From: Ectothiorhodospiraceae bacterium BW-2
Lineage (GTDB): Bacteria > Pseudomonadota > Gammaproteobacteria > Thiohalomonadales > Thiohalomonadaceae
Length of the DNA stretch: 64,000 bases
NCBI GenBank assembly: GCA_008375315.1
Contig: CP032507.1
Location: 496,001 to 560,000 of the forward strand
Reading direction: 5' to 3'
Notes under the pieces: generated by a model
Seen by the model: only the letters and a program-made list of their open reading frames with translations
Databases searched by the model: none
Told to the model about the DNA's origin: nothing
In this document: one piece after another, positions 20,993 to 62,519 of the stretch
How positions within the stretch are numbered: the first letter of the stretch is position 1
How the letters are laid out: every line of letters begins with the position of its first letter
Position numbers and translations under genes: made by a program

Positions 20993-23900
20993 TTATTCCG
21001 GCTGCACTCCATACAACCAACTCCCTCCCTTACCACAGATAAAGCTCGGACAATCTTTAACTAGGGGATCGGTACCATAGAGCTGCTCTTCGCTATCACT
21101 GAAGCCGTCGTTGTCGTCATCGCTATCGGCGTTGTTGCCGGTACCATCGCCATCGGTATCGATTGACTCAGTACTATCTAACGGGAAGAGATCAATGGAG
21201 TCGTTGACACCATCGTTATCGCTATCGGCCTTGAGTGGATCGGTGCCGAGCTGCTGCTCTTCGATGTCTGATAGACCATCATTATCGTCGTCAGTATCGA
21301 TGCTATCAGGAGTGCCGTCGTTATCGGTATCTAATGTCGCTGTTGTGGGTTCTGTGTAGCGCCGTGTACCGTAGCGGTAGGCTAGGTATTGTTGGAGTGT
21401 TGTGAGCCCGGCTGCAGCTTCCACAATGACGGTACGAGTCACTGGTGCTGCGGCATTGCCAGCTGCATCGCTGACACGATAGGTCAGGGTGTACTCTCCT
21501 GCCGTTTGGGTGTCAACGCTACCTGTCACGACTATCGCGTTGGTTAGGTCGCCATCGACATTATCTGTGGCGGTTGCCCCCTGCTCTTGATAGCTCTCAT
21601 TGATATTTATGGTGAGTGGATTATCTCCTAGTAGAGTCATCAGTGGCGGCTCTTCGTCCTGGGCCGGATCGGTGCCGTTTTGATGTTCTTGCAGGTTAGT
21701 CACCCCATCACCATCGATATCACCTGCTGCATCAGCGGCATCGAATGGATTCATGCCGTAGCTGATTTCGGCGCTATCGGCAATACCGTCGCCATCGCTA
21801 TCTTGCCACCATACGCTATTGTCTGGAAAAGCATCACAAACATCACCATGACCATCCTCATCACTATCCATTTGGTTTGAGTTGAGTGAGTAGGGGCAGT
21901 TATCTGCATTATCAGCAATGCCATCGCCATCAAAATCGGATAGATTCAGTTGAGCAGTCGGGTTTGACTGTTGATAGTCATTTTTACCCCAGCAGATTAG
22001 CTCACCGGTCTGCTCTATGGCACAACTGTGATCGTAGCCTGCTCCAATCGAAATGGGATGGGTTAACTCTGGTACTGTTATCTGTCCAGAGCTGTTATCC
22101 CCCCAGCAGCTCACCCCTGAGTCATCCAGCGCACAGCTATGGTTAATGCCTAATGCCAAGGCGATCGGGTTTGAGAGTGTAGGCGCACTACTCTGTCCAT
22201 AGTAGTTATTACCCCAACAGATAACGGTGCCCTCATCGATGGCGCAGCTATGGAAGCCACCAGCCGCAATCACGGTTGGGTGAGTTAGCTGAGGCGGGGT
22301 AGCTTGTCCAGAGGAGTCCGCTCCCCAGCAAACGACCCCATTGGCTTCAATGGCACAGCTATGGCTGTAACCACTGGCTATTCGTCTCGGGGCTGTTAAG
22401 CTGGGTATATCGAGCTGACCGGAGCTGTTGTCTCCCCAGCACTGCACGCCGCTCGCATCCAAGGCGCAACTAAAGTCCCTGCCTACGGCTATATCTGTCG
22501 GATTAGACAGTGTTGGTACGGTGGTCTGACCGTTGCTATTGTCTCCCCAGCAACTGACGCCATTTGTATCGAGCAGACAGCCATGACCTGAGCCATTGAT
22601 CTCAAATTTGATCGGCTGTTCAACGGTAGGTTTTGTTGAAATCACGCCGTAGTTATTGTAACCCCAGCAGGCGAGCTGAGTTGCATCCATCGCGCAACTT
22701 GTAATCCACGATCCATTCACCTGATAACGGGGCTGCAATGGCAAGTGGCCGAAATAATATTCATCCCGATCACTAGCGCCGTCGCCATCACTGTCGCTTA
22801 AGTAGAGATGATAGCTACCAAGGGTTATCTCTATTGAATCGATTAAATTATCATTATCGTCATCATTATCGCTGTTATTACCGATACCATCACTATCGCT
22901 ATCTAACCACTCAGTACTATCAGTCGGAAAGGCATCGATACCATCCGCTCTATTATCGCCGTCACTGTCCCAGTTAAGCCAATTAGTGAGCTGTTGCTGC
23001 TCTATTGAATCACTTAATCCATCGCCATCAAAATCGGCTAGATTCAGTTGAGCAGTCGGGTTTGACTGTTGATAGTCATTTTTACCCCAGCAGATTAGCT
23101 CACCGGTCTGCTCTATGGCACAACTGTGATCGTAGCCTGCTCCAATCGAAATAGGATGGGTTAACTCTGGTACTGTTATCTGTCCAGAGCTGTTATCCCC
23201 CCAGCAGCTCACCCCTGAGTCATCCAGTGCACAGCTATGGTTCATGCCTAATGCCAAGGCGATCGGGTTTGAGAGTGTAGGCGCACTACTCTGTCCATGG
23301 TAGTCATTACCCCAACAGGTAACGGCACCTTCATCGATGGCGCAGCTATGGTAGCCACCAGCCGCAATCACGGTTGGGTGAGTTAGCTGAGGCGGGGTAG
23401 CTTGTCCAGAGGAGTCCGCTCCCCAGCAAACGACCCCATTGGCTTCAATGGCACAGCTATGGCTGTAACCACTGGCTATTCGTCTCGGGGCTGTTAAGCT
23501 AGGTATATCGAGTTGACCGGAGCTGTTGTCTCCCCAGCACTGCACGCCGCTCGCATCCAAGGCACAACTGAAGTCTGTTCCTACGGCTATATCTGTCGGA
23601 TTAGACAGTGTTGGTACGGTGGTCTGACCCTTTCTATTGTCTCCCCAGCAACTGACGCCATTCGTATCGAGCAGACAGCCATGCCCCCAGCTACCTATCT
23701 CAAATTTTATCGGCTGTTCAATGGCAGGTTTTGCTGAATTCACACCGAAGAAGTCGCTACCCCAGCAGGCGAGTTGGGTCGCATCCATGGCGCAACCTGC
23801 AACCCACGAACCACTCACTTGATAGCGTGATATTAAGGGGGAATAGCCATTATCGATCTCTAGGTTATCATTGGCGCCATCGCCATCACTGTCGCTGAGT

Positions 23901-25363
23901 AGGGGATGGGTCCCTAGTAATATTTCTGCTGCGTCACTAAGGCTATCACCATCGTCATCATCATCACTGTTGTTACCGATACCATCGCCATCGCTATCAA
24001 GCCACTCGGCGGGGTTTAGAGGGAAGGGATCCGCGCCGTCATTAACGCCATCGTTATCGCTATCGGCATCTAGTGGGTCGGTGCCATTTGCAATTTCAAC
24101 ACTATCGTCAACACCATCGCCATCATCATCGCTATCACTATTGTTGCCGATACCATCGCCATCGGTATCAAGCCACTCATTGATGTCTAGTGGGAAAGCA
24201 TCCTCTCCGTCGTTAATGTTGTCGCCATCGCTATCTACTTCTAATGGATTGGTACCGATTGCTGCTTCTTGGCTATCTGTCAGGCCATCACCATCGCTAT
24301 CTGTGCAGGTTGCGTTTTTAACTCCACTGCCATCGCTATAGAAGATGAAGTCACTTTCGTTACAGCCGGCATCTACATAGATGGTAAATGTTGCTAAGGT
24401 CACTGGTGTGATAGGATGCGGGGCAGAGAAAGAGGGATCGGTTGTCTCCTCTGCGTAGGGGCCAACGCTGCTTCCCCCAATAAAGCGCTCTTCTATTGAT
24501 TCGGCGTGCACGGTATATTCGCCCGGTAGTAATGCAATATTAAAGCTACCATCACCCAGTTCCATATAGTCAGAGACTGTAGAGAAGATGGCATTGTCAC
24601 TAATGCGTTTAAACCAGATGTTTGCTCCTAAGATAGGGGTGTCGTCGCTAGGCAGCAGGAATTTGCCTCTGACGATACCATAAGTGTTTGCAAAGTCTGG
24701 TGATGAGTATAGGTGGCTAATAGCTGCTATGTCGTCATTTTTTAGTTCGGGTGTATCACGATATGAAATGGGGTACATCACGGGGTATTCAGTGATAGGC
24801 AGCCCTTGTGTGTCATCGAGCTGAGAGTGGTCTAAACCTACAAAGTGACCTAGTTCATGGACAATGGTCTGTTTAATATCTTCTGTCGCTTTTGTTGCCA
24901 TAAGGTAGCCATTTAGTACTGCACGCCCTTCTATGTAGTTTCCGGTATAGCTGCTCCAGCTAGAGCCGGCAAAGCCTAGAATAAACTCTTTTTGCCCGCT
25001 GCCTTTTAGCATGTCGATGATGGAGCCATCTGTGTCATAAATGACAGGATTCAGGCCATCCGTTGTTGTCATCATGCTGTTATAGTTAGCCGTAGTAACA
25101 TCGACTTCTAGATCACTACCCCGCTGTAGTTGAATAGAGCTTGTAGGGATACTGTTCCAAATTTGCAGGCTGTCGGAAACGAGTTGATCAGCTTGTTCTT
25201 TTGGGAGCGTTCCTAATGTGCCTTGATCAAAATTGAGGCTGATTGTGGGTTGGGAGTAGGTAACGGGGGCACTGTTAAGCGATTTTAGCGGGCCTCCTGC
25301 AAAGCTGGTCGAAAACCAGAGCAGAAGGAGGAGTAAAGGGGGGGCTATTTTTAGTAATTTCAT
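20993..25363 (-). CDS. Large secreted metzincin-like protease with TSP3 and RCC1-type repeats
   Basis: The 1456-residue protein has a signal peptide (residues 1-22, hydrophobic run of leucines, FAGG cleavage) and a zinc site [11 protein letters not shown] (169-179) followed by a Met-turn-like YPVMYPIS (Met196): a matrixin-type metalloprotease. Then come several calcium-binding TSP3-like repeats ([18 protein letters not shown]), two ~260-residue blocks of RCC1-like repeats ([18 protein letters not shown]), an Ig-like/DUF5011 domain ([20 protein letters not shown]) and more TSP3 repeats. The last codon is followed by TAA from an AATAAAAGGGGTCAG motif, so the natural C-terminus may have been replaced. 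It overlaps the upstream gene by 4 nt and is probably exported and surface-associated. Confidence 0.88.
21949..22727. repeat. Internal duplication unit 1 of the metalloprotease gene
   Basis: About 780 bp encoding a block of RCC1-like repeats. It is almost identical at DNA level to 23039-23826, apart from a cluster of changes near the outer edges (for example CWGYNNYGV against CWGSDFFGV). Such identity implies a recent duplication or ongoing gene conversion. Confidence 0.88.
23039..23826. repeat. Internal duplication unit 2 of the metalloprotease gene
   Basis: The partner of 21949-22727, ~310 bp away. The intervening sequence encodes TSP3-like aspartate-rich repeats. Both ends of each unit start within the LNLxDFDGDG stretch. 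Confidence 0.88.
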
Positions 25364-46397: not shown

Positions 46398-48188
46398 CTA
46401 CCGCCACACCAGCCGTCGTGTACCAATACTCACCATCGCAAACGATTTTAATTTCCACTCTACCGCAGGAAAAAGCTTTTCTAATTTCGGCTGATACGAG
46501 GCTAACTGCCCTTCTGCGTCATCTAACAGCTTTTTTACCGGTTTCAGTTCAGCCAGCTGCTCCCGACTCATCTCACTCAGCTGTTCCGCGCTCAATTGGA
46601 GCTCTTTCAGTGCCAGATATTTCAGCTCAAATAGCAGATCATACAGCGGTGCCTGGCGCTTATCGGGGCGAATTTCAAATAGCAGGTCACTATAGCCGCC
46701 GCCCAATGAGAGCTCCGAACGCGGCAGATAGTAGAGATCATTGGTCAGCAGCAGCAGTAGCGTGGTTTTGAGTGTAAACTCATTACTCCAGCGCATATCG
46801 CGATTATCAAGCACACTATAAAAACGCTGTTCGATAAATTCAGCTAGCGGCTCAAATTTGGCCTCGGTATAGAGCAGCTCCGCCACCGCCTGTTGGCGGT
46901 TATTATCTTCATAGCCATTGAGCAGCTGCTGCTGAATTCGATCGATATAGAGCGAGCGCACCACCTGATTAGGGATAGTCACCTTTAGCTTTCCGATTGG
47001 TGAGACATCCTGAATCGTTAAGACCCCAAAATAGACCAGTAGTGAGATAATAAAACTGGCATCAGGTGGATCGTTTAGCATCGCTTTAACCCCAAAATTT
47101 TGTGCCAGCTTGGCTACCCATAGCGACTGCTGCGGATTGAGCGCTGCTTCAATCACCTCCGCGCCATGGGGTAACGCGGCAATATAGCGCAGCCGGTTTT
47201 TATCCATCGCTAAATTGTCATCTAACAGCTCATTAGGGTAGCGACACAGCTGCTGCCACTCATCCCAAAAGTAGAGGCAGAGCGTCGGGTTATAGAGTCG
47301 GGTGGTATCATCACCACTAAAGCGGTAGCCGTTATAGAAGTTCTGCATCAACGACATCGCCTCATCTGCCGCACCCTCGGGTAGCTCGCACTCTCGCGCT
47401 ATTTGGCGATTAAGTTGCATCACCTCTTCAGCGGTAAAACCGCAGAGTTTGGCAAAGTGTGGCCGCTGACTGATGTTTTTCGCTACATTGTAGCCGCTGG
47501 TGATATCGCTCATCACCACCGGTGAGACACCGGTGATAAACACCCGCTCTAAGCCTAGGCCATCGGTCGCTGCTTTGACCGCTTTAAAGACGGTTTTAAT
47601 CACCCCTTCACCTTTAACCAGTTCGTTATAGCGCTTTCTGCCATGCTCACGACTGGTTAACACCTCGTTAGCAAAGTTGTCGTATTCGTCTATCAGCAGG
47701 TAGAGCGGATATCCTGCATGGTGGCATCGACTAACCAGCCGCTCAAAAGAGCGCAAAGCATCCCCTTCATCAATCAGCTCCGCTGCGCTAATTGCTTGAG
47801 GCCACCACGATTGATAGCGAAGTAACGCATCACGAATGCTATTATTGATATGGCCATACAGCCCCTGTTTAATCTGCTCGTGGTCGCCATTTGAGTTAAT
47901 GGTGGAGAAGTTCCACTTCAACATAAAGTAGCGGTTACGGTTCGGGGTCGGGTTTTGCCCTATGGCTAAATCGCCAAACAGAGGCTCAAACTGATCCGCT
48001 GCAGCGATGTCGTAGTAGCTCTCTAGCAGCGTTAGCCACAGCGTTTTACCAAAACGGCGCGGGCGTAGAAACAGCAGCTGCCGTCCTGCCGCCTCTAATT
48101 CGTGCAGCAGGTCGGTACGATCAAAATAGAGTCCACCCTCCTCTCTGAGGGTTTTAAAGTGACCCAAACCATATGAGATATTTACCAT
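46398..48188 (-). CDS. AAA-ATPase-like / PD-(D/E)XK protein (copy 2)
   Basis: 596 residues from ATG 48188 behind AAGGA; the TTG two codons earlier is less likely. It starts MVNISYGLGHFKTLREEGGL, then has the Walker-A-like RPRRFGKTLWLT and Walker-B-like LYLLIDEYDNF. The segment between them (GDHEQIKQGLYGHINNSIRD...) is shared with copy 3. It differs from copies 1, 3 and 4 in the sensor/lid part (HFAKLCGFTAEEVMQLNRQI, RFSGDDTTRLYNPTLCLYFW), yet its C-terminal nuclease domain is nearly identical to theirs. Function unknown. Confidence 0.9.
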   Translation of the reverse strand: MVNISYGLGHFKTLREEGGLYFDRTDLLHELEAAGRQLLFLRPRRFGKTLWLTLLESYYDIAAADQFEPLFGDLAIGQNPTPNRNRYFMLKWNFSTINSNGDHEQIKQGLYGHINNSIRDALLRYQSWWPQAISAAELIDEGDALRSFERLVSRCHHAGYPLYLLIDEYDNFANEVLTSREHGRKRYNELVKGEGVIKTVFKAVKAATDGLGLERVFITGVSPVVMSDITSGYNVAKNISQRPHFAKLCGFTAEEVMQLNRQIARECELPEGAADEAMSLMQNFYNGYRFSGDDTTRLYNPTLCLYFWDEWQQLCRYPNELLDDNLAMDKNRLRYIAALPHGAEVIEAALNPQQSLWVAKLAQNFGVKAMLNDPPDASFIISLLVYFGVLTIQDVSPIGKLKVTIPNQVVRSLYIDRIQQQLLNGYEDNNRQQAVAELLYTEAKFEPLAEFIEQRFYSVLDNRDMRWSNEFTLKTTLLLLLTNDLYYLPRSELSLGGGYSDLLFEIRPDKRQAPLYDLLFELKYLALKELQLSAEQLSEMSREQLAELKPVKKLLDDAEGQLASYQPKLEKLFPAVEWKLKSFAMVSIGTRRLVWR

Positions 48189-48259
48189 GTGCAATCCTTA
48201 ATTTACTCGTTACCACGCAGGAGCGTGGAAACGAGAATAAACGAGAATAACCCGACAAC

Positions 48260-50050
48260 TTAGCGCCACACCAACCGCCGGATACCAAGACTCACCACCG
48301 CAAACGACTTTAATTTCCACTCCACCGCCGGAAAGAGCTGCTCTAATGTCGGCTGATACGAGGCCAACTGCCGCTCTGCGTCATCTAACAGCTTTTTTAC
48401 CGGTTTCAACTCAGCTAACTGCTCCCGACTCATATTAGATAGCTGCTCTGCACTCAATTGGAGATCTTTCAGTGACAGATATTTCAGTTCAAATAGCAGA
48501 TCATACAGCGGTGCCTGACGCTTATCGGGGCGAATCTCAAATAGCAGGTCACTATAGCCGCCGCCTAAGGATAACTCTGAGCGCGGCAGGTAGTAGAGAT
48601 CATTGGTCAGCAGCAGCAGTAGCGTGGTTTTAAGCGTCAGCTCATTACTCCAGCGCCTATCGCGATTATCGAGCACGCTATAAAAACGCTGTTCGATAAA
48701 TTCAGCTAGCGGCTCAAATTCGGCCTCGGTATAGAGCTGTTTCGCTACCGCCTGCTGGCGGTTATTATCCTCATAGCCATTTAACAGCTGCTGCTGAATT
48801 CGGTCGATATAGAGCGAGCGCACCACCTGATTCGGAATCGTCACCGTTAACTCGCCTAACAGATTCACCGATTCAATCGTTAATACGCCAAAATAGACCA
48901 GTAGCGAGATGATAAAACTGGCATCAGCCGGATCGTTTAACATCGCCGCTACGCCAAAGTCCTGCGCTAACTTCGCGACCTGTAGTGGCTGCTGCGGATT
49001 AAGCGCCGCCTCAATCACCTCTGTGCCATGCGGTAGTGCGGCGATATAGCGTAGCCGGTTTTTATCCATCGCTAAATTGTCATCTAACAGCTCATCAGGG
49101 TAGCGACAGCGCCGCTGCCAATGTTTCAAAAAGTAGAGGGTGAGGGTCGGGTTATAGAGCCGCTGCGTCTCTTCACGGCAGAAGCGGTAGCCGTTATAGA
49201 AGTTTCGCATCATCGCTAACGCTTCATCTGCTGTGCTATCGGTTAGCTGGCACTGCTCGGCAATTTGGTGACACACCGGTTGCAGCTCCTCAGTGGTTAA
49301 GCCGCACAGAGCATGAAATTCGGGCCAGTGGCTAATATTTTCGGCCACATTGTAGCCGCTGGTGATATCGCTCATTACGACTGGCGAGACGCCGGTAATA
49401 AAGACTCGCTCTAAGCCGAGGCCATCAGTTGCCGCTTTGACTGCTTTAAATACGGTTTTGATAACGCCTTCCCCCTCAACCAGCTCATTATAACGCTGCC
49501 GTCCCTGTTCACGACTGGTGAGCACCTCATTCGCAAAGTTATCGTACTCATCAATCAGCAGGTAGAGCGGATACCCCGCATGACGGCATCGGCTAACCAG
49601 CCGTTCAAAAGAGCGCAACGCATCCGCTTCATCAATCAGCTCCGTTGCACTAATCGCTTGAGGCCACCACGGTTGATAGCGAAGTAACATATCGCGAATA
49701 CTATTATTGATATGGCCATACAGTCCCTGTTTAATCTGCTCGTGGTCGCCACTTGGGTTAATGGTGGAGAAGTTCCACTTCAGCATAAAATAGCGGTTAC
49801 GGTTCGGAGTCGGGTTTTGCCCTATGGCTAAATCACCAAACAGCGGCTCAAATTGATCCGCTGCAGCGATGTCGTAGTAGCTCTCTAGCAGCGTTAGCCA
49901 TAGCGTTTTGCCAAAACGGCGCGGGCGTAAAAACAGCAACTGCCGTCCTGCCGCCTCTAATTGGTGCAGCAGGTCGGTACGATCAAAATAGAGTCCCCCC
50001 TCCTCTCTGAGGGTTTTAAAGTGACCCAAACCATATGAGATATTTACCAT
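48260..50050 (-). CDS. AAA-ATPase-like / PD-(D/E)XK protein (copy 3)
   Basis: The 596-residue protein is a mosaic. Its N-terminal ~220 residues follow copy 2, whereas residues ~230-340 (HALCGLTTEELQPVCHQIAE, FCREETQRLYNPTLTLYFLK) are identical to copy 4. A middle patch (PQQPLQVAKLAQDFGVAAML, ESVNLLGELTVTIPNQVVRS) is unique. The nuclease signature YSDLLFEIRPDKR...FELKYL is intact. ATG 50050 has GGAT upstream. Confidence 0.9.
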   Translation of the reverse strand: MVNISYGLGHFKTLREEGGLYFDRTDLLHQLEAAGRQLLFLRPRRFGKTLWLTLLESYYDIAAADQFEPLFGDLAIGQNPTPNRNRYFMLKWNFSTINPSGDHEQIKQGLYGHINNSIRDMLLRYQPWWPQAISATELIDEADALRSFERLVSRCRHAGYPLYLLIDEYDNFANEVLTSREQGRQRYNELVEGEGVIKTVFKAVKAATDGLGLERVFITGVSPVVMSDITSGYNVAENISHWPEFHALCGLTTEELQPVCHQIAEQCQLTDSTADEALAMMRNFYNGYRFCREETQRLYNPTLTLYFLKHWQRRCRYPDELLDDNLAMDKNRLRYIAALPHGTEVIEAALNPQQPLQVAKLAQDFGVAAMLNDPADASFIISLLVYFGVLTIESVNLLGELTVTIPNQVVRSLYIDRIQQQLLNGYEDNNRQQAVAKQLYTEAEFEPLAEFIEQRFYSVLDNRDRRWSNELTLKTTLLLLLTNDLYYLPRSELSLGGGYSDLLFEIRPDKRQAPLYDLLFELKYLSLKDLQLSAEQLSNMSREQLAELKPVKKLLDDAERQLASYQPTLEQLFPAVEWKLKSFAVVSLGIRRLVWR

Positions 50051-50192
50051 GTGCGATCCTTAATTTGTAGACCTACTCCAAATAAGCGCCAATATCGATT
50101 CCCACGGTGACCGTGGAAACCAGAAAATAAGCTTAATGAAACAACCGACTCTTCTGTATTCCCACGCGGGAGCGTAGGAACGAGAATTCATC

Positions 50193-50223
50193 GTAGGTCG
50201 GGTTAGCGCAGCGTAACCCGACA
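50193..50223. repeat. REP-like palindrome
   Basis: GTAGGTCGGGTTAGCGCAGC and GTAACCCGACA repeat the palindrome seen near the RAYT gene and its fragments; a diverged copy is at 46361-46393. It lies between copies 3 and 4 of the ATPase/nuclease genes. Confidence 0.75.
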
Positions 50224-50225
50224 CC

Positions 50226-52004
50226 CTAGCGCCACACCAACCGCCGGATACCAAGACTCACCACCGCAAACGATTTTATCTTCCACGCCACCGCCGGAAA
50301 GAGCTGCTCCAATGTCGGCTGATAGGTGGCCAACTGCCGCTCTGCGTCATCTAACAGCTTTTTTACCGGTTTCAACTCAGCTAACTGCTCCCGACTCATA
50401 TTAGATAGCTGCTCCGCACTCAATTGGAGATCTTTCAGTGACAGATATTTCAGTTCAAATAGCAGATCATACAGCGGTGCCTGACGCTTATCGGGGCGAA
50501 TCTCAAATAGCAGGTCACTATAGCCGCCGCCTAAGGATAACTCTGAGCGCGGCAGATAGTAGAGATCATTGGTCAGCAGCAGCAGTAGCGTGGTTTTGAG
50601 CGTCAGCTCATTACTCCAGCGCATATCGCGATTATCGAGCACGCTATAAAAACGCTGTTCAATAAAGTCAGCTAGCGGCTCAAATTCGGCCTCGGTATAG
50701 AGCAGCTCCGCCACCGCCTGTTGGCGGTTATTATCTTCATAGCCATTGAGCAGCTGCTGCTGAATTCGGTCGATATAGAGCGAGCGCACTACCTGATTCG
50801 GAATCGCCACCTCCAGCTTCCCAAGTGGCGAGACATCCTGAATCGTTAAGACCCCAAAATAAACCAGTAGTGAGATAATAAAACTGGCATCAGGCGGATC
50901 GTTTAGCATCGCTTTAACCCCAAAATTTTGTGCCAGCTTGGCTACCCATAGCGACTGCTGCGGATTAAGCGCCGCCTCAATCACCTCCGCACCATGGGGT
51001 AGTGCGGCAATATAGCGTAGCCGGTTTTTATCCATCGCTAAATTGTCATCTAACAGCTCATCAGGGTAGCGACAGCGCCGCTGCCAATGTTTCAAAAAGT
51101 AGAGGGTGAGGGTCGGGTTATAGAGCCGCTGCGTCTCTTCACGGCAGAAGCGGTAGCCGTTATAGAAGTTTCGCATCATCGCTAACGCTTCATCTGCTGT
51201 GCTATCGGTTAGCTGGCACTGCTCGGCAATTTGGTGACACACCGGTTGCAGCTCCTCAGTGGTTAAGCCGCACAGAGCATGAAATTCGGGCCAGTGGCTA
51301 ATATTTTCGGCCACATTGTAGCCGCTGGTGATATCGCTCATTACGACTGGCGAGACGCCGGTGATAAAGACTCGCTCTAAGCCTAGGCCATCGGTCGCCG
51401 CTTTGACCGCTTTAAATACCGTTTTAATCACCCCCTCGCCGCCGACTAGCTCATCGTAGCTCTGCCGTCCCTGTTCACGGCGGGTGAGCACTTCATTGGC
51501 AAAGTTGTCATACTCATCAATCAGCAGGTAGAGCGGAGTATCATACGCCGCCAACTCACCCAATAAATTTTCAAAGCTATGTATCCCATCTTGCGGGTCA
51601 ATTTGAACCGGCCGGTTCAGCCATTGACGATATCTGTTGCAAAAGCGCTCAATTGAGCTATTCAGATGGTTATGCAAAGAGCGGCTAATATGGGCTAAAT
51701 CGCCACTTGGATCGATGACCGAAAAGTTCCACTTTAAAATAAAGTAGCGGTTACGGTTCGGGGTCGGGTTTTGCCCTATGGCTAAATCGCCAAACAGGGG
51801 CTCAAATCGATCCGCTGCAGCGATGTCGTAGTAGCTCTCTAATAGCGTTAGCCATAGCGTTTTGCCAAAACGGCGCGGGCGTAGAAACAGAATCTGTTCG
51901 CCAACGGCTTCAAGTGCGTGCAGCAGTTCGGTGCGATCAAAGTAGAGCTGGCCATCAGTTCTTAACCGCTTAAAATCGCCTTTGCCATACGGAATATTTA
52001 CCAT
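50226..52004 (-). CDS. AAA-ATPase-like / PD-(D/E)XK protein (copy 4)
   Basis: 592 residues. The N-terminus (MVNIPYGKGDFKRLRTDGQL) follows copy 1. The inter-Walker segment (GDLAHISRSLHNHLNSSIER, NRYRQWLNRPVQIDPQDGIH) is unique. The middle is identical to copy 3 and the C-terminal third to copy 1. The Walker-A- and Walker-B-like motifs and the ExK nuclease motif are present. A GGAGC site precedes ATG 52004. The three tandem genes are separated by 71 and 175 bp with TTCCCACG palindromes and a REP-like palindrome. Confidence 0.9.
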   Translation of the reverse strand: MVNIPYGKGDFKRLRTDGQLYFDRTELLHALEAVGEQILFLRPRRFGKTLWLTLLESYYDIAAADRFEPLFGDLAIGQNPTPNRNRYFILKWNFSVIDPSGDLAHISRSLHNHLNSSIERFCNRYRQWLNRPVQIDPQDGIHSFENLLGELAAYDTPLYLLIDEYDNFANEVLTRREQGRQSYDELVGGEGVIKTVFKAVKAATDGLGLERVFITGVSPVVMSDITSGYNVAENISHWPEFHALCGLTTEELQPVCHQIAEQCQLTDSTADEALAMMRNFYNGYRFCREETQRLYNPTLTLYFLKHWQRRCRYPDELLDDNLAMDKNRLRYIAALPHGAEVIEAALNPQQSLWVAKLAQNFGVKAMLNDPPDASFIISLLVYFGVLTIQDVSPLGKLEVAIPNQVVRSLYIDRIQQQLLNGYEDNNRQQAVAELLYTEAEFEPLADFIEQRFYSVLDNRDMRWSNELTLKTTLLLLLTNDLYYLPRSELSLGGGYSDLLFEIRPDKRQAPLYDLLFELKYLSLKDLQLSAEQLSNMSREQLAELKPVKKLLDDAERQLATYQPTLEQLFPAVAWKIKSFAVVSLGIRRLVWR

Positions 52005-56165: not shown

Positions 56166-56690
56166 ATGGCTCTGACAACGCATCAACTACGACTTAATCT
56201 GCAAAGCGCGGCGACGCTAAAAACGGGTGATAGCGTCAATGCCAAGGTGCTGGATGTCCAAGGCAATAAACTGCTACGACAGATCGGAGCCGGTCAAGGA
56301 GCTGATTGCCCCTCTGCTATCACAGTGGAGCGATCCGCCATCTCCCGGCACCACACTACAGGCGCGGGTTATCACCAGCGGTCAAAATCTGACTCAACTG
56401 TAGATCGGTAACGAAAAGATCTGGTTTAAGGCGGGAGAAGGTGCTGCACTCAAACCGGGCAGCCTGGTGCTGCTCCAGACAACCGCCCGCGATAGTCAAA
56501 CCGTACAACTGCAACCGTTAGAGGGGCCACTGCGCCCCTTCAAACAGATTGAGACCGAAGCTCTGTGCCATATCCTGCCACGCCAGCAGCCGCTGCATGA
56601 GGGGTTAGGCCGACTCATGCAGCTAGTTCAGAGCAGGAGGCAAAGGGCGAACAGCCCTACAGCTCCTCAAAATAGGTATAACCACTCAAA
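56166..56690 (+). pseudogene. FliK-like gene, decayed
   Basis: ATG 56166 reads MALTTHQLRLNLQSAATLKT, GDSVNAKVLDVQGNKLL, then must shift frame to ELIAPLLSQWSDPPSPGTTL, QARVITSGQNLTQL, TAG, IGNEKIWFKAGEGAALKPGS, VLLQTTARDSQTVQLQPLEG and LPRQQPLHEGLGRLMQLVQS. This resembles flagellar hook-length-control (FliK) proteins. At least one frameshift and one stop make it a pseudogene. It converges on speA. Confidence 0.6.
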
Positions 56691-58531
56691 CCGTGCTTAA
56701 ATTCGTTATAAAAATAGTGCTGCTGTTCAAGCGGCACCCCACTCTGCTGTAGCAGCTGACGGTAGTGCTCTAATAGCAGTTCACTATCGAAGTGGAGATA
56801 GTGGAGCAGCTCCGCAATCGTATCTCCCTGCTGCGTATTGACTAGGCGATAGCGGCCATCCGGCTCCATAGCGACATCAACCACATGGGTGTCGCCAAAC
56901 AGATTATGGATATCACCCAAAATCTCCTGATAGGCGCCGACCAAAAAGATCGCCAAAATAGTCGGCTTATCTGCCACTAAGGGGGGGAGTAGAATCGCCG
57001 GTTCAACCCTGCCGTCATCAATATAGTGATCGATACGGCCATCCGAGTCGCAGGTTAAATCCTCCAACACCACCCGCTGCGACGGTGGCTGCTTCAGACC
57101 ACTAACCGGCATTATCGGGAAAATCTGCTCAATCCCCCAAATATCGGGCAACGACTGAAAAATTGAGAGGTTACAGAAATATTTTCCCACTAACTGCTGC
57201 TGCAGCTGTTGATAAATGTCAGCCTGCAACGGCTGACTTCTGTCGAGCTGCGGCATTAAACGGGCAGCGATCACCCGATAGAGCTGCTCCGCATCGGCTC
57301 GCTGCTGCAGAGTGATTAACCCCGGCAAAAAGTGCTGCTGCACACCCTCCATTGCAGTCATCGCATCATAGTGGATATCGACCACAGAGCGCTGCCCTAT
57401 CTGTTGCAGCGCCTGATATAACTCAAGCAGAGGTTCAGCTGCCCCTGTGGTGATAGCCGGTACGGTAGTGGTATCAGGTATCTCACTATCGATCACTTCG
57501 GTTAACAGCAGCGCATGGTGTGCGGTTAAGCCGCGTCCCGATTCGGTTAAAATTTCGGGATGAGGCAGCTGATGCTGTCGACATACCGTTAACAGCGGCT
57601 GCACCAACGCTTCCGCATAGTGCTGTAGGGTATAGTTTATCGAGTTATAGCTACTGCTGCGGCTGCCGTCGTAATCGATTCCCAGCCCGCCCCCCATATT
57701 AATCGCACTCACCGGTACACCCAGTTTTCGGAGTTCAACATAGAAGCGGGACATCTCTCGCACTGCCTGTTGAATGTCGTGAATATTAGCTACCTGTGAG
57801 CCGATATGGGTATGTAACAGATAGAACGACGCTAACTGCTGCTGCTGGCGTAACCGCTTAATCAGAATAAAGAGGTGATCGGTTGTCAGACCAAATTTAG
57901 CTCTGGTGCCGCCACTATTCTGCCACTTACCGGCTCCCCGACTGGTTAAGCGTACCCGTACCCCTAGTCGCGGCTGGAGTTGTAGCTTTTGCGCCTCATC
58001 CAGTACCAAATCGAGTTCAGAGAGTTTTTCGATAATAAGGGTTACATCAATTCCGAGCTTCAGCCCGATCAATGCCAGGCGAATATACTCCCGATCTTTA
58101 AAGCCGTTACAGACAACCCGGCTCCCCGGCTGGCTCAGCCCCAGAACCGCCAACAGCTCCCCCTTACTCCCCGCCTCCAGCCCTAGCCGACCGCCCCCCC
58201 CCTGCTGCAGAGCGCGAACCACACTATGCTGCTGATTCACCTTAATCGGGTAGAGCGGCTGATAACATCCTTGATAGCCACTCGCAGCCATCACCTGTTC
58301 AAATGTGCGGGTTAGCTGCTGCAGACGATGGTGTAAAATATCGGGAAAACGGATCACAACCGGTAGCTGTAGCGATAACGACTGCAGATCAGCGCAGAGC
58401 TCGGTCAGTGTTACCTTCTCCCCTGCACTACCCTGTGGCAGAACAGTTAACTCTCCCTGCGCGTTAACCGCAAAGTAGCCCTCGCTCCAGTTAGCGATGT
58501 TATAGTTTTTAGCCGCACACCATGCTGACAT
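56657..58531 (-). CDS. speA: Biosynthetic arginine decarboxylase
   Basis: About 624 residues; ATG 58531 is preferred to the TTG one codon earlier. The PLP-binding region reads CYQPLYPIKVNQQHSVVRAL (Schiff-base Lys). GLEAGSKGELLAVLGLSQPG, RLTSRGAGKWQNSGGTRAKF, HTHIGSQVANIHDIQQAVRE and NMGGGLGIDYDGSRSSSYNS are SpeA signatures. It converts arginine to agmatine and CO2 for polyamine synthesis. It is the last gene of a five-gene operon, starting 8 bp after the TrpF-like gene with its ribosome site in that gene's last codons. Confidence 0.95.
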   Translation of the reverse strand: MSAWCAAKNYNIANWSEGYFAVNAQGELTVLPQGSAGEKVTLTELCADLQSLSLQLPVVIRFPDILHHRLQQLTRTFEQVMAASGYQGCYQPLYPIKVNQQHSVVRALQQGGGGRLGLEAGSKGELLAVLGLSQPGSRVVCNGFKDREYIRLALIGLKLGIDVTLIIEKLSELDLVLDEAQKLQLQPRLGVRVRLTSRGAGKWQNSGGTRAKFGLTTDHLFILIKRLRQQQQLASFYLLHTHIGSQVANIHDIQQAVREMSRFYVELRKLGVPVSAINMGGGLGIDYDGSRSSSYNSINYTLQHYAEALVQPLLTVCRQHQLPHPEILTESGRGLTAHHALLLTEVIDSEIPDTTTVPAITTGAAEPLLELYQALQQIGQRSVVDIHYDAMTAMEGVQQHFLPGLITLQQRADAEQLYRVIAARLMPQLDRSQPLQADIYQQLQQQLVGKYFCNLSIFQSLPDIWGIEQIFPIMPVSGLKQPPSQRVVLEDLTCDSDGRIDHYIDDGRVEPAILLPPLVADKPTILAIFLVGAYQEILGDIHNLFGDTHVVDVAMEPDGRYRLVNTQQGDTIAELLHYLHFDSELLLEHYRQLLQQSGVPLEQQHYFYNEFKHGLSGYTYFEEL

Positions 58532-58539
58532 CAAATTTG

Positions 58540-59253
58540 CTATCTACATCCTTCGTGCAATAGCCAGTCGGCTTCTTTTGTTTTTTCAATGAATAAGCGG
58601 CATTTGAGCATATTTTTGACTCTTAAGCCGTCCGACATTCTGTCGCTCACACCATTTTCTACATCAACACCAAACGGTTTGACCGTTTCAATTGCACGGT
58701 GAATATTGTCTGGATTCAAGCCTCCTGCTAAAAAAACCGGAGATTGGCACTTGCGCACGATTTCCGCGCAATGTTGCCAATTACCGGTTTTCCCCGTTCC
58801 GCCTATCCAAGCACTATCTAACAGAAAAGCATCTACCACATCATCGTAGTAGCGAATAAACTCATCGTCACTCATCTGATTTTCTTCAGACTTTTCTGAC
58901 ATTAATTTAATAATTTTAAAATCCCCCCCCATTTTTTCTCGTAGTTTAGTTATTTCCTGACGAGAAATAGGTGCATAGGCTTGAATGGCATCAGCTGCTT
59001 TCAATGTAGAGAGAATATCAAGCAATGTATCGCCAGTTAAATCTGTCAGTAGTGTTTTACAAATGTTCGCTGGAAGATAAGAAAAAATATGTTTGAATTT
59101 TTCTGCTTTAGCCAGATAATCTTGATCACTAAAAATATGAAAACCTAGAAAATCCGCACCAATAAATGAAGCCTCATAGGCGGCGTCTAAAGATTCAAAT
59201 TCACATAATTTAATGCGGGTATAGTGTACGCTAAGATCCCATACATGATTCAT
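58540..59253 (-). CDS. TrpF-like phosphoribosylanthranilate isomerase homologue
   Basis: 237 residues from ATG 59253 (MNHVWDLSVHYTRIKLCEFE), chosen because GAGAGGA lies 9 nt upstream and overlaps the alternative TTG. TrpF catalyses an Amadori rearrangement of a phosphoribosylamine. The general base Cys17 (IKLCEFE, TrpF KICG) and general acid Asp146 (FLLDSAWIGGTGKTGNW) are kept, with the phosphate-binding FLAGGLNPDNIHRAI and GVDVENGV. The KICG glycine is replaced by Glu and an insertion follows residue 120. No other trp genes accompany it, so the substrate may not be phosphoribosylanthranilate. Confidence 0.85.
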   Translation of the reverse strand: MNHVWDLSVHYTRIKLCEFESLDAAYEASFIGADFLGFHIFSDQDYLAKAEKFKHIFSYLPANICKTLLTDLTGDTLLDILSTLKAADAIQAYAPISRQEITKLREKMGGDFKIIKLMSEKSEENQMSDDEFIRYYDDVVDAFLLDSAWIGGTGKTGNWQHCAEIVRKCQSPVFLAGGLNPDNIHRAIETVKPFGVDVENGVSDRMSDGLRVKNMLKCRLFIEKTKEADWLLHEGCR

Positions 59254-59313
59254 TAATTGGTATCCTCTCAAGCAGGTTTATTATTGAACTTCTAATGAAC
59301 ACTCTTAAGTATA

Positions 59314-60096
59314 TTAATCAAGCAGCAAAGCAGGGGTAAGACTATCGAGGAAAATTGTCACCTGATCGACGCCTTGCCGCATGACTTCCAAGAACGCAGT
59401 ACCAATAATAACACCATCTAATTTTTCAAGTTGCTTAAGCTTGCGAATATCATCCGGAGTTCTAACTCCAAAGCCAGCCATTATCTTGATGTCAGAACGA
59501 TAGGCTTTTGAGCGTCGAATGCACTCGTTCAATTCTGAATGAGAGAATAATTTCGCGCCGGTCATTGATGCTGAAGTTAGATAAACCAGTGGCTCTTTAA
59601 CCGCACTACCTAAGTATTTCTCCATATCGGCTTCAGTCATTTCCGGATAGACGCATTGAATAAACTCAATATCGTAGCGTTTGGACTGCTCAACATACGG
59701 TTTGACATCTTCAACTTCCCATTCAAGTAAAACAGAGTCAATCTTGCCGTACATTTTTTGCAGCAAGATTTCAAAACCCAAGGCATCAACCACTTCTTGA
59801 TAGACCACGGCAACGGAAGGTTTTTTAAAAGCTTGCAATGTTTCTAGTACGGTTAAAGCGTTTTGATACTGAGAAGCCGTTTGATGGGCAGTGCGGATAA
59901 TTTGATTGGCAAAATCAGAAAATTTTGAAGTAACGGGAAAAGTCGTTTCAATAATAGTAACGCTGGGATGTTCATGTAAAATATCGAGTATTACATGATA
60001 GGTATCAGGATCGGGAAAATTGGGAATAACATAAATCATCAATGCCAAAGCCCCGTTGTCATTAGCTGTTTGAACTGCCTGATGCAATGTTGCCAT
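59314..60096 (-). CDS. TrpA-like (tryptophan synthase alpha) homologue
   Basis: This 260-residue (beta/alpha)8 protein has ATG 60096 behind AAGGAG. TrpA cleaves indole-3-glycerol phosphate by retro-aldol chemistry. Both catalytic acids align: Glu50 (VTIIETTFPV) and Asp61 (SKFSDFANQ), with the same 11-residue spacing as Glu49 and Asp60 of TrpA. The phosphate sites are YLTSASMTGAKLFS, IMAGFGVRTPDDI and GVIIGTAFLEVM. The ELGIPFSDPLADGP loop is otherwise much changed and no TrpB is present, so it probably acts alone, like BX1-type lyases, on indoleglycerol phosphate or another substrate. Confidence 0.85.
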   Translation of the reverse strand: MATLHQAVQTANDNGALALMIYVIPNFPDPDTYHVILDILHEHPSVTIIETTFPVTSKFSDFANQIIRTAHQTASQYQNALTVLETLQAFKKPSVAVVYQEVVDALGFEILLQKMYGKIDSVLLEWEVEDVKPYVEQSKRYDIEFIQCVYPEMTEADMEKYLGSAVKEPLVYLTSASMTGAKLFSHSELNECIRRSKAYRSDIKIMAGFGVRTPDDIRKLKQLEKLDGVIIGTAFLEVMRQGVDQVTIFLDSLTPALLLD

Positions 60097-60106
60097 TTAT
60101 GACTCC

Positions 60107-61288
60107 TTATAGAGTGGAAAAACCCTGAAACAGAAGTTCCTTAAAGCAAGCTAATTCATAAAGAGCCAGGCTTTCTATTTCTTGATTAGCGGTTTTCTGT
60201 ACAATGGTTTCTGTATCTAAAAAATGGTGAAACTGAAACAAATAATCTTGTATAACAAGTTTTTCAAGTTGGATTAAATAATGGTAATTCTTTTGGAAGG
60301 TAATATCTTTGTAAATAGGTAATAACCAAGGTGCCGTAGCATACAAAACGAAACTGCTTTTTTCTTTTGCTAAGGCTAACAACCATAATGGAAAAGAAGC
60401 GAGCACACCAGTTTCAACAATGAGCAATGGCTGTCCCGTTTGAAGCATATCTAATTGTGCTTTTGATACTTGCCAAAACGCCTGAGGTAAATCAGCATGG
60501 GCAAAAAGCTTCTTAATATAATCGTGGCAAAACACATGCAAATCACACTCACCCTGCTGGTTTAACGTGTCGTATAAGGTATCAGCCATCGTATAATAAA
60601 ATTCAGTATCACCGGCACAATATTTTAGCACTGTACGATTTAATAACAAGGGTTTCAGTGGCGGCAATTGCATTCCTTGATTTTGTAGCCAGACAAAGCC
60701 CAAATAAACCAATAAAGTATCGCGCAATAAAAATACCGGAGTAACAGCCGGATGCTGTTGCAAACGAGGCTGCATCCATCGCATAAAGTTTACAATTTCT
60801 TGTATGACTGAACGGGTATTTTCTTGCCAAATTTCCATGTCACGCTGATGGGTAAAACAATGCGAAATGTCCGGTAACTGATTACCTTGCTGCAAAAGAT
60901 AATCAAGATAAGCATTTAAAGAAATTTGTTCGCCTGTGATCTCTGGCGTTTGTTGAAACACTGTAGGTTGCGCGGATTCAGGGCACAAATAAAAAAGACT
61001 TTCTTTAGAAACAGCACCTAGCTGTTTTACCACCTTACCAACAAAAGCAGCAAGACGCTCATAGGCATCTTCTGTGCCGACAATGGCATCAATGATCGTT
61101 TCGGCATTATCAATCCCAAATGTTTCATCCTGAAGATCGTCCATATATTTTAAGATTGCAGAGGCTTCTTGTCCTAAATTAAATAGCGTATCTTTCGGGC
61201 ACTTTGCAATATTCGTTTGTTCATATAGCTGGACGCGGGCTTGTGAGTAACGCGTCAAAAAGATCATCTCTTGTTGATTGTCAGGCAT
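60107..61288 (-). CDS. Uncharacterised 393-residue protein in the amidinotransferase operon
   Basis: I do not recognise this protein. It has no signal peptide or clear membrane segments. The N-terminal half is helical and acidic (LGQEASAILKYMDDLQDETF). Near 175-215 there is TPVFLLRDTLLVYLGFVWLQ, and near 285-320 LLIVETGVLASFPLWLLALA followed by FVLYATAPWLLPIYKD; the latter alternation recalls a Rossmann-like or phosphoribosyltransferase-like core, but no motif is decisive. It lies 10 bp before the TrpA-like gene and 32 bp after the amidinotransferase gene, so it belongs to the same pathway. ATG 61288 has AGGAAA upstream. Confidence 0.75.
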   Translation of the reverse strand: MPDNQQEMIFLTRYSQARVQLYEQTNIAKCPKDTLFNLGQEASAILKYMDDLQDETFGIDNAETIIDAIVGTEDAYERLAAFVGKVVKQLGAVSKESLFYLCPESAQPTVFQQTPEITGEQISLNAYLDYLLQQGNQLPDISHCFTHQRDMEIWQENTRSVIQEIVNFMRWMQPRLQQHPAVTPVFLLRDTLLVYLGFVWLQNQGMQLPPLKPLLLNRTVLKYCAGDTEFYYTMADTLYDTLNQQGECDLHVFCHDYIKKLFAHADLPQAFWQVSKAQLDMLQTGQPLLIVETGVLASFPLWLLALAKEKSSFVLYATAPWLLPIYKDITFQKNYHYLIQLEKLVIQDYLFQFHHFLDTETIVQKTANQEIESLALYELACFKELLFQGFSTL

Positions 61289-61320
61289 TATTTTTCCTGT
61301 TTGTTATGTATAAATTCTTA

Positions 61321-62421
61321 TCAGAAATAAGACATTAATCCACCACGACGACGAATATCTAAGGTTGCACAATGAAAACCGCCTAGAAACGGATAATAAT
61401 TATCAAAAGCACATGGAATAGGCTTTAATCCCCAATTCTTGAAAGCCTTAATGAGCGGCTGTTGATTTTTAGCGACAATAACGCGCTCTTCATCCAGCAT
61501 CAATATATTGATAGCAATCCACTTACTCACTGCTTGAATGGGATCTTTATTGGGGACAGGCTCAGGGGCTACTAGAATATCCCAAGTTTTCAAGATATCA
61601 GGCAATTTTTTTACGTCGATATAATCCTGACTAACCACTACTTTGCCGGGGGCCAAGGGCATAAAGGTCGTGTCGATATGAATAGCTTCAGGATTGCAGG
61701 TTTCTAGCACATGGATGTTGTAATCACTACCTAAGTGACGCTCCAACCACAGAATACCTAAATCATTAGTGACATGGCTACGTTGCACAAACAAGTCCCG
61801 TCCACAACGCACGAAATCCGCAGCGTCGAATACCGGTTCAAATTCAGTAAGTACGTAACCCATTGGTTCTCCGGCTTCAGGAAAACGATGATCGGTTTTG
61901 TATAAAGCATCCGTGAGTTGAGGTTTGGGAGCTGCGCTCCAACGTGCGCCAGCTTTGAGATATTCTTTAAACAGAGAGCGATACGCCCAGGCTTCGAAAT
62001 AGCGTCCTCGATCCGCCATAGGTGTTTCAATGATTTCGTTACCAATCACGATGAAAGGATCTCGTGGGTTGGCGGCACAAAAACCATGCGCCATGTGCCA
62101 ATCCGGTGAGGCGTAGGGTCGCGTGTAATCGACAATATCCGGTCGGCGTACCGTTACGCCTTCTGCTTCCAAAATATGAATGAATTCATCCAGTTCTTTT
62201 TGAGCGCCATCAATTAAGTGCTGCGGATAAGGCCTGCCAGCACCCGCAGTTCTGGCGGTCAGTTTTTCCCATTCACCGGGCGCAACCGTGTGATCATTGA
62301 TAACATTCCAGGAAGAAAATACAGCATTTTCCAATCTGCCGACAATGACTTCTTCTAAGGGATCCCATTCAGTATAAGAATTTACCGGGCATGCGGATGT
62401 TGTTTGTGCATTATCACTCAT
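61321..62421 (-). CDS. Glycine-amidinotransferase (AGAT)-family enzyme
   Basis: 366 residues from ATG 62421; a TTG eight codons earlier is less likely. The family moves the amidino group of arginine onto an amine, releasing ornithine, through a covalent Cys. The catalytic triad is visible: Asp202 (FDAADFVRCGRDLFVQRSHV), His248 (NPEAIHIDTTFMPL) and Cys351 (GGFHCATLDIRRRG). The N-terminus SYTEWDPLEEVIVGR is typical. The acceptor amine is unknown; relatives act on glycine, lysine, inosamine phosphate or polyketide precursors. First gene of the operon ending in speA, which also consumes arginine. Confidence 0.92.
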   Translation of the reverse strand: MSDNAQTTSACPVNSYTEWDPLEEVIVGRLENAVFSSWNVINDHTVAPGEWEKLTARTAGAGRPYPQHLIDGAQKELDEFIHILEAEGVTVRRPDIVDYTRPYASPDWHMAHGFCAANPRDPFIVIGNEIIETPMADRGRYFEAWAYRSLFKEYLKAGARWSAAPKPQLTDALYKTDHRFPEAGEPMGYVLTEFEPVFDAADFVRCGRDLFVQRSHVTNDLGILWLERHLGSDYNIHVLETCNPEAIHIDTTFMPLAPGKVVVSQDYIDVKKLPDILKTWDILVAPEPVPNKDPIQAVSKWIAINILMLDEERVIVAKNQQPLIKAFKNWGLKPIPCAFDNYYPFLGGFHCATLDIRRRGGLMSYF

Positions 62422-62458
62422 TATTTTTTCATCATTATTTATCAAAAATAAAAGGGGG

Positions 62459-62511
62459 CGGTAGTAATAAACAGGGTATCTAGGTTATCGCCCCCAAAAC
62501 AGCAACTAGTG
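62459..62511 (-). pseudogene. Fragment of an SMP-30-like gene
   Basis: The minus strand reads TSCCFGGDNLDTLFITTA, matching TSCCFGGDDLDTLFITTA in the gene at 6632-7420. Only this ~53-bp piece remains, between degQ and the operon start. Confidence 0.75.
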
Positions 62512-62519
62512 GGAGACGG

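Follow-up and report, generated by a model that had tools for sequence, protein, structure and literature searches.

A conserved cassette of an SxtG-like amidinotransferase, TrpF-like and TrpA-like barrels and an orphan protein: a candidate shortened tryptophan-like pathway in Gammaproteobacteria

The histidine pathway leads from phosphoribosyl pyrophosphate (PRPP) through an Amadori step to a ring product, imidazole glycerol phosphate, and the azomycin route starts from arginine and uses no PRPP, TrpF-like or TrpA-like enzyme. In saxitoxin synthesis SxtG amidinates an alpha-aminoketone (PMC7073992), OroA of the sponge oro route is an amidinotransferase (PMC12833800), and the polyamine amidinotransferase HsvA belongs to the same family as AGAT (PMC12833800). 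Here we describe a cassette of four genes in a 64,000-nt stretch of the Ectothiorhodospiraceae bacterium BW-2 genome (contig CP032507.1, positions 496,001-560,000 of the forward strand; hereafter the window, within which all coordinates are counted) that encodes an SxtG-like amidinotransferase of the AGAT family, a 393-residue orphan protein (X393), and a TrpA-like and a TrpF-like TIM barrel. Judging from sequence, and with somewhat less than even confidence, we read the cassette as a shortened tryptophan-like pathway joined to an amidinotransferase.

The cassette (58540-62445) lies between degP and speA as an island of low G+C content. Its genes lie on the minus strand in the order amidinotransferase (61321..62445, ATG at 62421), X393 (60107..61288), TrpA-like (59314..60096) and TrpF-like (58540..59271, ATG at 59253), and are followed on that strand by speA, the gene for biosynthetic arginine decarboxylase (56657..58534, ATG at 58531). 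The five open reading frames (ORFs) that a first-pass annotation had placed in a one-strand row are all present and intact, and the gaps of 32, 10, 60 and 8 bp given there are reproduced with the three ATG starts. That annotation also called the row a five-gene operon, of which the gene row and spacing hold, but speA looks native by base composition, so that a four-gene acquired cassette is the better reading. Because the amidinotransferase (44.7% G+C), X393 (38.7%), TrpA-like (40.7%) and TrpF-like (38.8%) genes are G+C-poor relative to degP (53.4%) and speA (52.3%), they probably constitute a horizontally acquired cassette inserted beside a resident speA. The spacing makes co-transcription likely.

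The same gene set recurs in other genomes. A species-genome collection scanned with the amidinotransferase yielded 23 loci, two of which carry the cassette, and since the scan requires exact eight-residue AGAT patterns, further cassettes may exist. In a Methylococcaceae metagenome-assembled genome (MAG; locus L013) the order is X393, TrpF-like, TrpA-like and amidinotransferase, and in Ca. Parabeggiatoa (L011) the amidinotransferase and X393 are accompanied by a TrpA-like gene that is truncated where the contig ends. Identity to the window proteins is 64-68% for the amidinotransferase, 65% for TrpF-like, 55-60% for TrpA-like and 38-39% for X393. The neighbourhood is thus conserved, in rearranged form, in L013 and, as far as the contig extends, in L011; the genes have open frames in three lineages of distantly related bacteria, which speaks against a chance neighbourhood, and the constant gene content in differing order favours a functional unit. 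X393 was found nowhere else in approximately 1,120 distinct genomes, which covered relatives, the class and the phylum, further carriers of AGAT genes and the two orders to which the L011 and L013 genomes belong, nor in plasmids, phages or viral contigs. Likewise, no TrpA-like orthologue without X393 occurred in 368 other Gammaproteobacteria, and none in viral contigs. Just upstream of the Parabeggiatoa cassette, 3.5 kb (L011:6488-10003; 36% G+C) contain no ORF of 80 residues.

Next, the two barrels differ from the enzymes of tryptophan synthesis in a consistent manner. The TrpA-like protein matches PF00290 with 58.8 bits and the TrpF-like protein PF00697 with 60.7 bits, both far under the NCBIfam equivalog cut-offs. 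The catalytic residues named in the first-pass annotation are in place: the TrpF-like protein has the Cys and Asp, together with the phosphate motifs, and the TrpA-like protein of the window has Glu50, equivalent to catalytic Glu49 of TrpA, and Asp61, as well as the phosphate loops TGA, GFG and G(T/S)A (GTA in the window). By contrast, where TrpF has Arg36 (T. maritima numbering, locally aligned without gaps), the TrpF-like protein of the window has Tyr and that of L013 has Val, whereas the Arg is present in the canonical TrpF of this genome and in the solved TrpFs compared. In TrpF, this residue holds the anthranilate carboxylate. Since the catalytic residues and phosphate motifs are kept and the TrpF-like protein lacks Arg36, both barrels look like working enzymes whose substrates would be phosphorylated and ribose-derived but not anthranilate compounds. 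They are 21-26% identical to the genome's own TrpA and TrpF and, with 55-65% identity between cassettes, form a subfamily of their own. The genome's own genes lie in the order truA-trpF-trpB-trpA-accD-folC at 2.41 Mb of the 4.07-Mb, one-contig genome, so the cassette copies are not its sole trpA and trpF, and no trpB ORF lies near the window, L011 or L013 cassettes. The earlier view that this is not ordinary tryptophan synthesis therefore stands, and we reject a role as ordinary tryptophan genes in view of the separate trpFBA set and the missing Arg.

The amidinotransferase, in turn, points towards SxtG. Aligned over its length, the window protein scores 516 bits with SxtG (6u1r), 331 with HsvA and 322 with human AGAT, and is thus much nearer to SxtG than to HsvA; the StrB-type inosamine-phosphate amidinotransferase is also among its relatives (221 bits). 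Its Asp-His-Cys triad, claimed previously, is found in the motifs FDAADF, HIDTT and FHCATLD. In a tree, the three cassette amidinotransferases fall inside one 15-row clade (support 100/96), in which those of L011 and L013 are sisters (99/98) and that of the window is separate from them. Synthases with an acyl carrier protein (ACP) and an AONS-type aminotransferase domain are frequent neighbours of the amidinotransferases of this clade (L012, L015, L018 and L031) and are expected to make alpha-aminoketones. Because these neighbours, the SxtG substrate and a TrpF product with a free amine would all lead to an alpha-aminoketone, we infer a convergence on such a substrate, which is a possible acceptor for the amidinotransferase. 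No SxtA-like synthase was found near the window, L011 or L013 cassettes, and no cassette gene adjoins the plasmid-borne amidinotransferases of Methylobacterium, Bradyrhizobium, Streptomyces and Pantoea.

The wider clade also offers observations of its own. In an uncultured gammaproteobacterium MAG (L012:5196-11074), an AprA/SxtA-like synthase (MT2-ACP-AONS) lies two genes upstream of the SxtG-like amidinotransferase, and the same arrangement, with GNAT detected too, is present in a Methylococcaceae MAG (L031:5453-11062). A P-type ATPase is a frequent neighbour (L009, L012, L013, L015, L016, L018 and L027); its family, which has 23 matches in Parabeggiatoa, could be an exporter of small molecules. 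The BW-2 genome itself (L070:7361-9448) has such a gene between an Asp/Arg hydroxylase-like gene and a long ORF with weak similarity (25%) to an AT-ACP-AONS synthase.

X393 could be assigned to no family of Pfam, NCBIfam or PHROG with a meaningful score and, judged by sequence, represents a new family. Pfam matches to Pox_RNA_pol, CCDC138_C and APP1_cat concerned one member each and were taken as chance, and a weak match in G854 was a spurious one to a TGVxKYL repeat protein. P-loop and GxGxxG motifs are absent from X393, the classical type I phosphoribosyltransferase signature for PRPP (PS00103) matches none of the three members, and a viral fold library gave nothing. However, a Foldseek search with the second of two AlphaFold models, in which the L013 row came first, returned Bcs3 of H. 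influenzae type b at ranks 1-6 and the ribofuranosyl transferase of T. composti (7shg) at rank 9, both of them PRPP-dependent ribosyltransferases of the CriT type. The CriT residues of Bcs3 are R679 and D680 in loop 1, S707 and R708 in loop 2 and E818 in loop 3, and in the fold one helix bundle precedes an alpha/beta core while a second interrupts the core between loops 2 and 3 (PMC10299916). In X393, R189-D190, N217-R218 and E292 follow in the same order (both relatives have Ser-Arg, the Asn occurring in the window only), all three members share the R, D, R and E without exception, the D-to-R spacing of 28 residues equals that of CriT in each, and the low-confidence model predicts helix bundles at matching places around an alpha/beta core. 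The acidic pair is likewise split between two loops in CriT. Among 581 ORFs searched, a strict form of this motif pattern matched no other ORF and a loose form 26; the X393 of L011 fails the strict form at hydrophobic positions. Unlike CriT-type enzymes, X393 does not lie in a glycan locus and has no HAD phosphatase partner beside it, which suits a pathway that retains its phosphate. We therefore consider X393 a candidate PRPP-dependent phosphoribosyltransferase that may supply the missing first step.

Combining these assignments, we infer the following reactions and their order. X393 would transfer ribose-5-phosphate from PRPP to a nitrogen, which is the role of TrpD, and the TrpF-like enzyme would rearrange the N-ribosyl compound to 1-amino-1-deoxyribulose-5-phosphate, an alpha-aminoketone. 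The SxtG-like enzyme would give the guanidine of arginine to this aminoketone, or to the amine ahead of the first step, and the alpha-guanidinoketone could close by itself to a 2-aminoimidazole ring with a glycerol-phosphate arm, replacing the ring closure by TrpC. The TrpA-like enzyme would then remove glyceraldehyde-3-phosphate by a retro-aldol reaction and leave a 2-aminoimidazole-type product, an outcome that we regard as speculative and on balance improbable; SpeA might supply agmatine or merely share the arginine pool.

Such a route would resemble the tryptophan pathway in its TrpF-like and TrpA-like enzymes, which keep their catalytic and phosphate motifs, and in a candidate PRPP enzyme ahead of them, but the cassette has no TrpB, TrpC, TrpD, TrpE or TrpG, has lost the anthranilate Arg, draws its PRPP enzyme from another family and adds an amidinotransferase. 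With the saxitoxin route it shares an SxtG-like amidinotransferase and possibly an alpha-aminoketone acceptor, yet it contains neither SxtA nor any other sxt gene, its aminoketone would derive from PRPP, and nothing indicates saxitoxin. The histidine pathway uses other enzymes (HisG, HisA, HisF/H) and has no retro-aldol release, and the oroidin and azomycin routes also lead to a guanidine-derived 2-aminoimidazole, although the steps proposed for oro involve neither PRPP nor a TrpF-like or TrpA-like enzyme. Apart from X393, the cassette enzymes come from known superfamilies. We found no paper with this gene set in the openly licensed literature searched, in agreement with the first-pass annotation, and there is a real chance that the pathway is categorically new. 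More specifically, it might yield 2-aminoimidazole-type alkaloids by a new route, with ring carbons drawn from PRPP instead of an amino-acid skeleton and a CriT-like enzyme recruited to make an N-riboside, but we consider this unlikely. If the proposed pathway is correct, enzymes of primary tryptophan synthesis have been rebuilt, together with an amidinotransferase and an orphan family, into a natural-product pathway carried by three gammaproteobacteria, among them a member of the Methylococcaceae and a giant sulfur bacterium; this would also link the ribosyltransferases of sugar polymers to small-molecule synthesis. In addition, the orphan X393 family gains a testable functional hypothesis.

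Several observations weigh against this proposal. Neither single members nor a profile of X393 matched a PDB sequence, so that there is no detectable sequence homology to CriT enzymes; both models were built from only three aligned rows and have low confidence (pLDDT, the per-residue model confidence, 57 and 61); the Foldseek E-values of 0.19-1.2 do not reach significance on their own; and no match to such ribosyltransferases came from the first model. Moreover, because the CriT-type pattern was drawn up after the sequences had been seen, the motif is a lead and not proof. We know of no citable precedent for guanidine or ammonia as the X393 acceptor, and the window cassette has no exporter or tailoring gene. 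Finally, Asp61 of the TrpA-like protein (the position of TrpA Asp60) is Glu in L011 and L013, and CriT-type enzymes make O-ribosides, not N-glycosides (PMC10299916).

The last two points would suit an alternative, possible if rather unlikely, in which the barrels have come to catalyse different isomerase or aldolase reactions on phosphosugars and the acceptor ribosylated by X393 is an oxygen, giving a guanidino-modified sugar with no imidazole. The low identity of the barrels to the genome's TrpA and TrpF and the presence of the StrB-type enzyme among the amidinotransferase's relatives are in line with this, but the Cys/Asp pair of TrpF and Glu50 of TrpA have been kept, and an Amadori enzyme requires an N-riboside.

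A different alternative gives weight to speA. SpeA of the window scores above the TIGR01273 and NF003763 cut-offs (764 bits for the latter), is a standard biosynthetic arginine decarboxylase and the only strong SpeA match in the genome, and lies 8 bp downstream of the cassette. In the 1.9-Mb genome of L013, the sole trace of SpeA detected is a decayed 60-residue C-terminal end (PF17944, 52.7 bits) on the same strand as X393 and 30 bp upstream of it; the genomes of L011 and L013, both incomplete MAGs, yielded no intact SpeA. In a modified-polyamine pathway with SpeA as a true fifth member, SpeA would make agmatine, the amidinotransferase would amidinate this or a different polyamine in the manner of HsvA, and the remaining enzymes would attach and trim a sugar-derived piece. 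This repeated adjacency and the membership of HsvA in the same family speak for such a pathway, which we nevertheless consider unlikely, as the composition of speA is native and that of the cassette is not, speA is broken in L013 and the amidinotransferase is far closer to SxtG. From its decay in L013, speA seems to be dispensable there, and with its native composition and only a decayed end in L013, speA is not a core gene of the cassette but at most an accessory member, although its adjacency in two lineages, at different cassette ends, is noteworthy and reflects either past agmatine use, or a cassette travelling with speA, or coincidence. Accordingly, of the guanidino-metabolite pathway proposed in the first-pass annotation, the dedicated, conserved gene set, in which an amidinotransferase accompanies enzymes that fit Amadori and retro-aldol steps, is retained and speA as a core gene is not; joining of agmatine to the product is possible.

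That spare or decaying trp copies and an amidinotransferase stand side by side by chance is very improbable: transposase-like and repeated genes abound in the window and the gene set is rare, but the same four open genes in different order in three lineages contradict it, as do the lost anthranilate Arg and the separate, mutually similar subfamily of the barrels.

Around the cassette, the spacer between degP and the amidinotransferase gene (62446..62519, minus strand) contains a GGGGGCG/CGCCCCC hairpin with a T-rich tail, possibly a degP terminator; its folding does not differ significantly from that of shuffled sequence (z -1.36), and because the latter folds nearly equally well we give the hairpin little weight. 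No Rfam element was matched. The relatives examined for the insertion point do not share the degP-speA gene order and thus provide no empty site for comparison. Beyond speA, at 56166-56650, an 81-residue ORF facing speA is followed by a stretch resembling broken coding sequence, with no Pfam match. Elsewhere in the window, an AAA-ATPase_like/PDDEXK_9 protein is encoded four times in near-identical form (334-2112 and 46398-52004), with three of the copies in tandem, and 20993-25363 encodes a secreted protein of 1456 residues that begins like a metalloprotease and contains RCC1 repeats and TSP3 calcium repeats.

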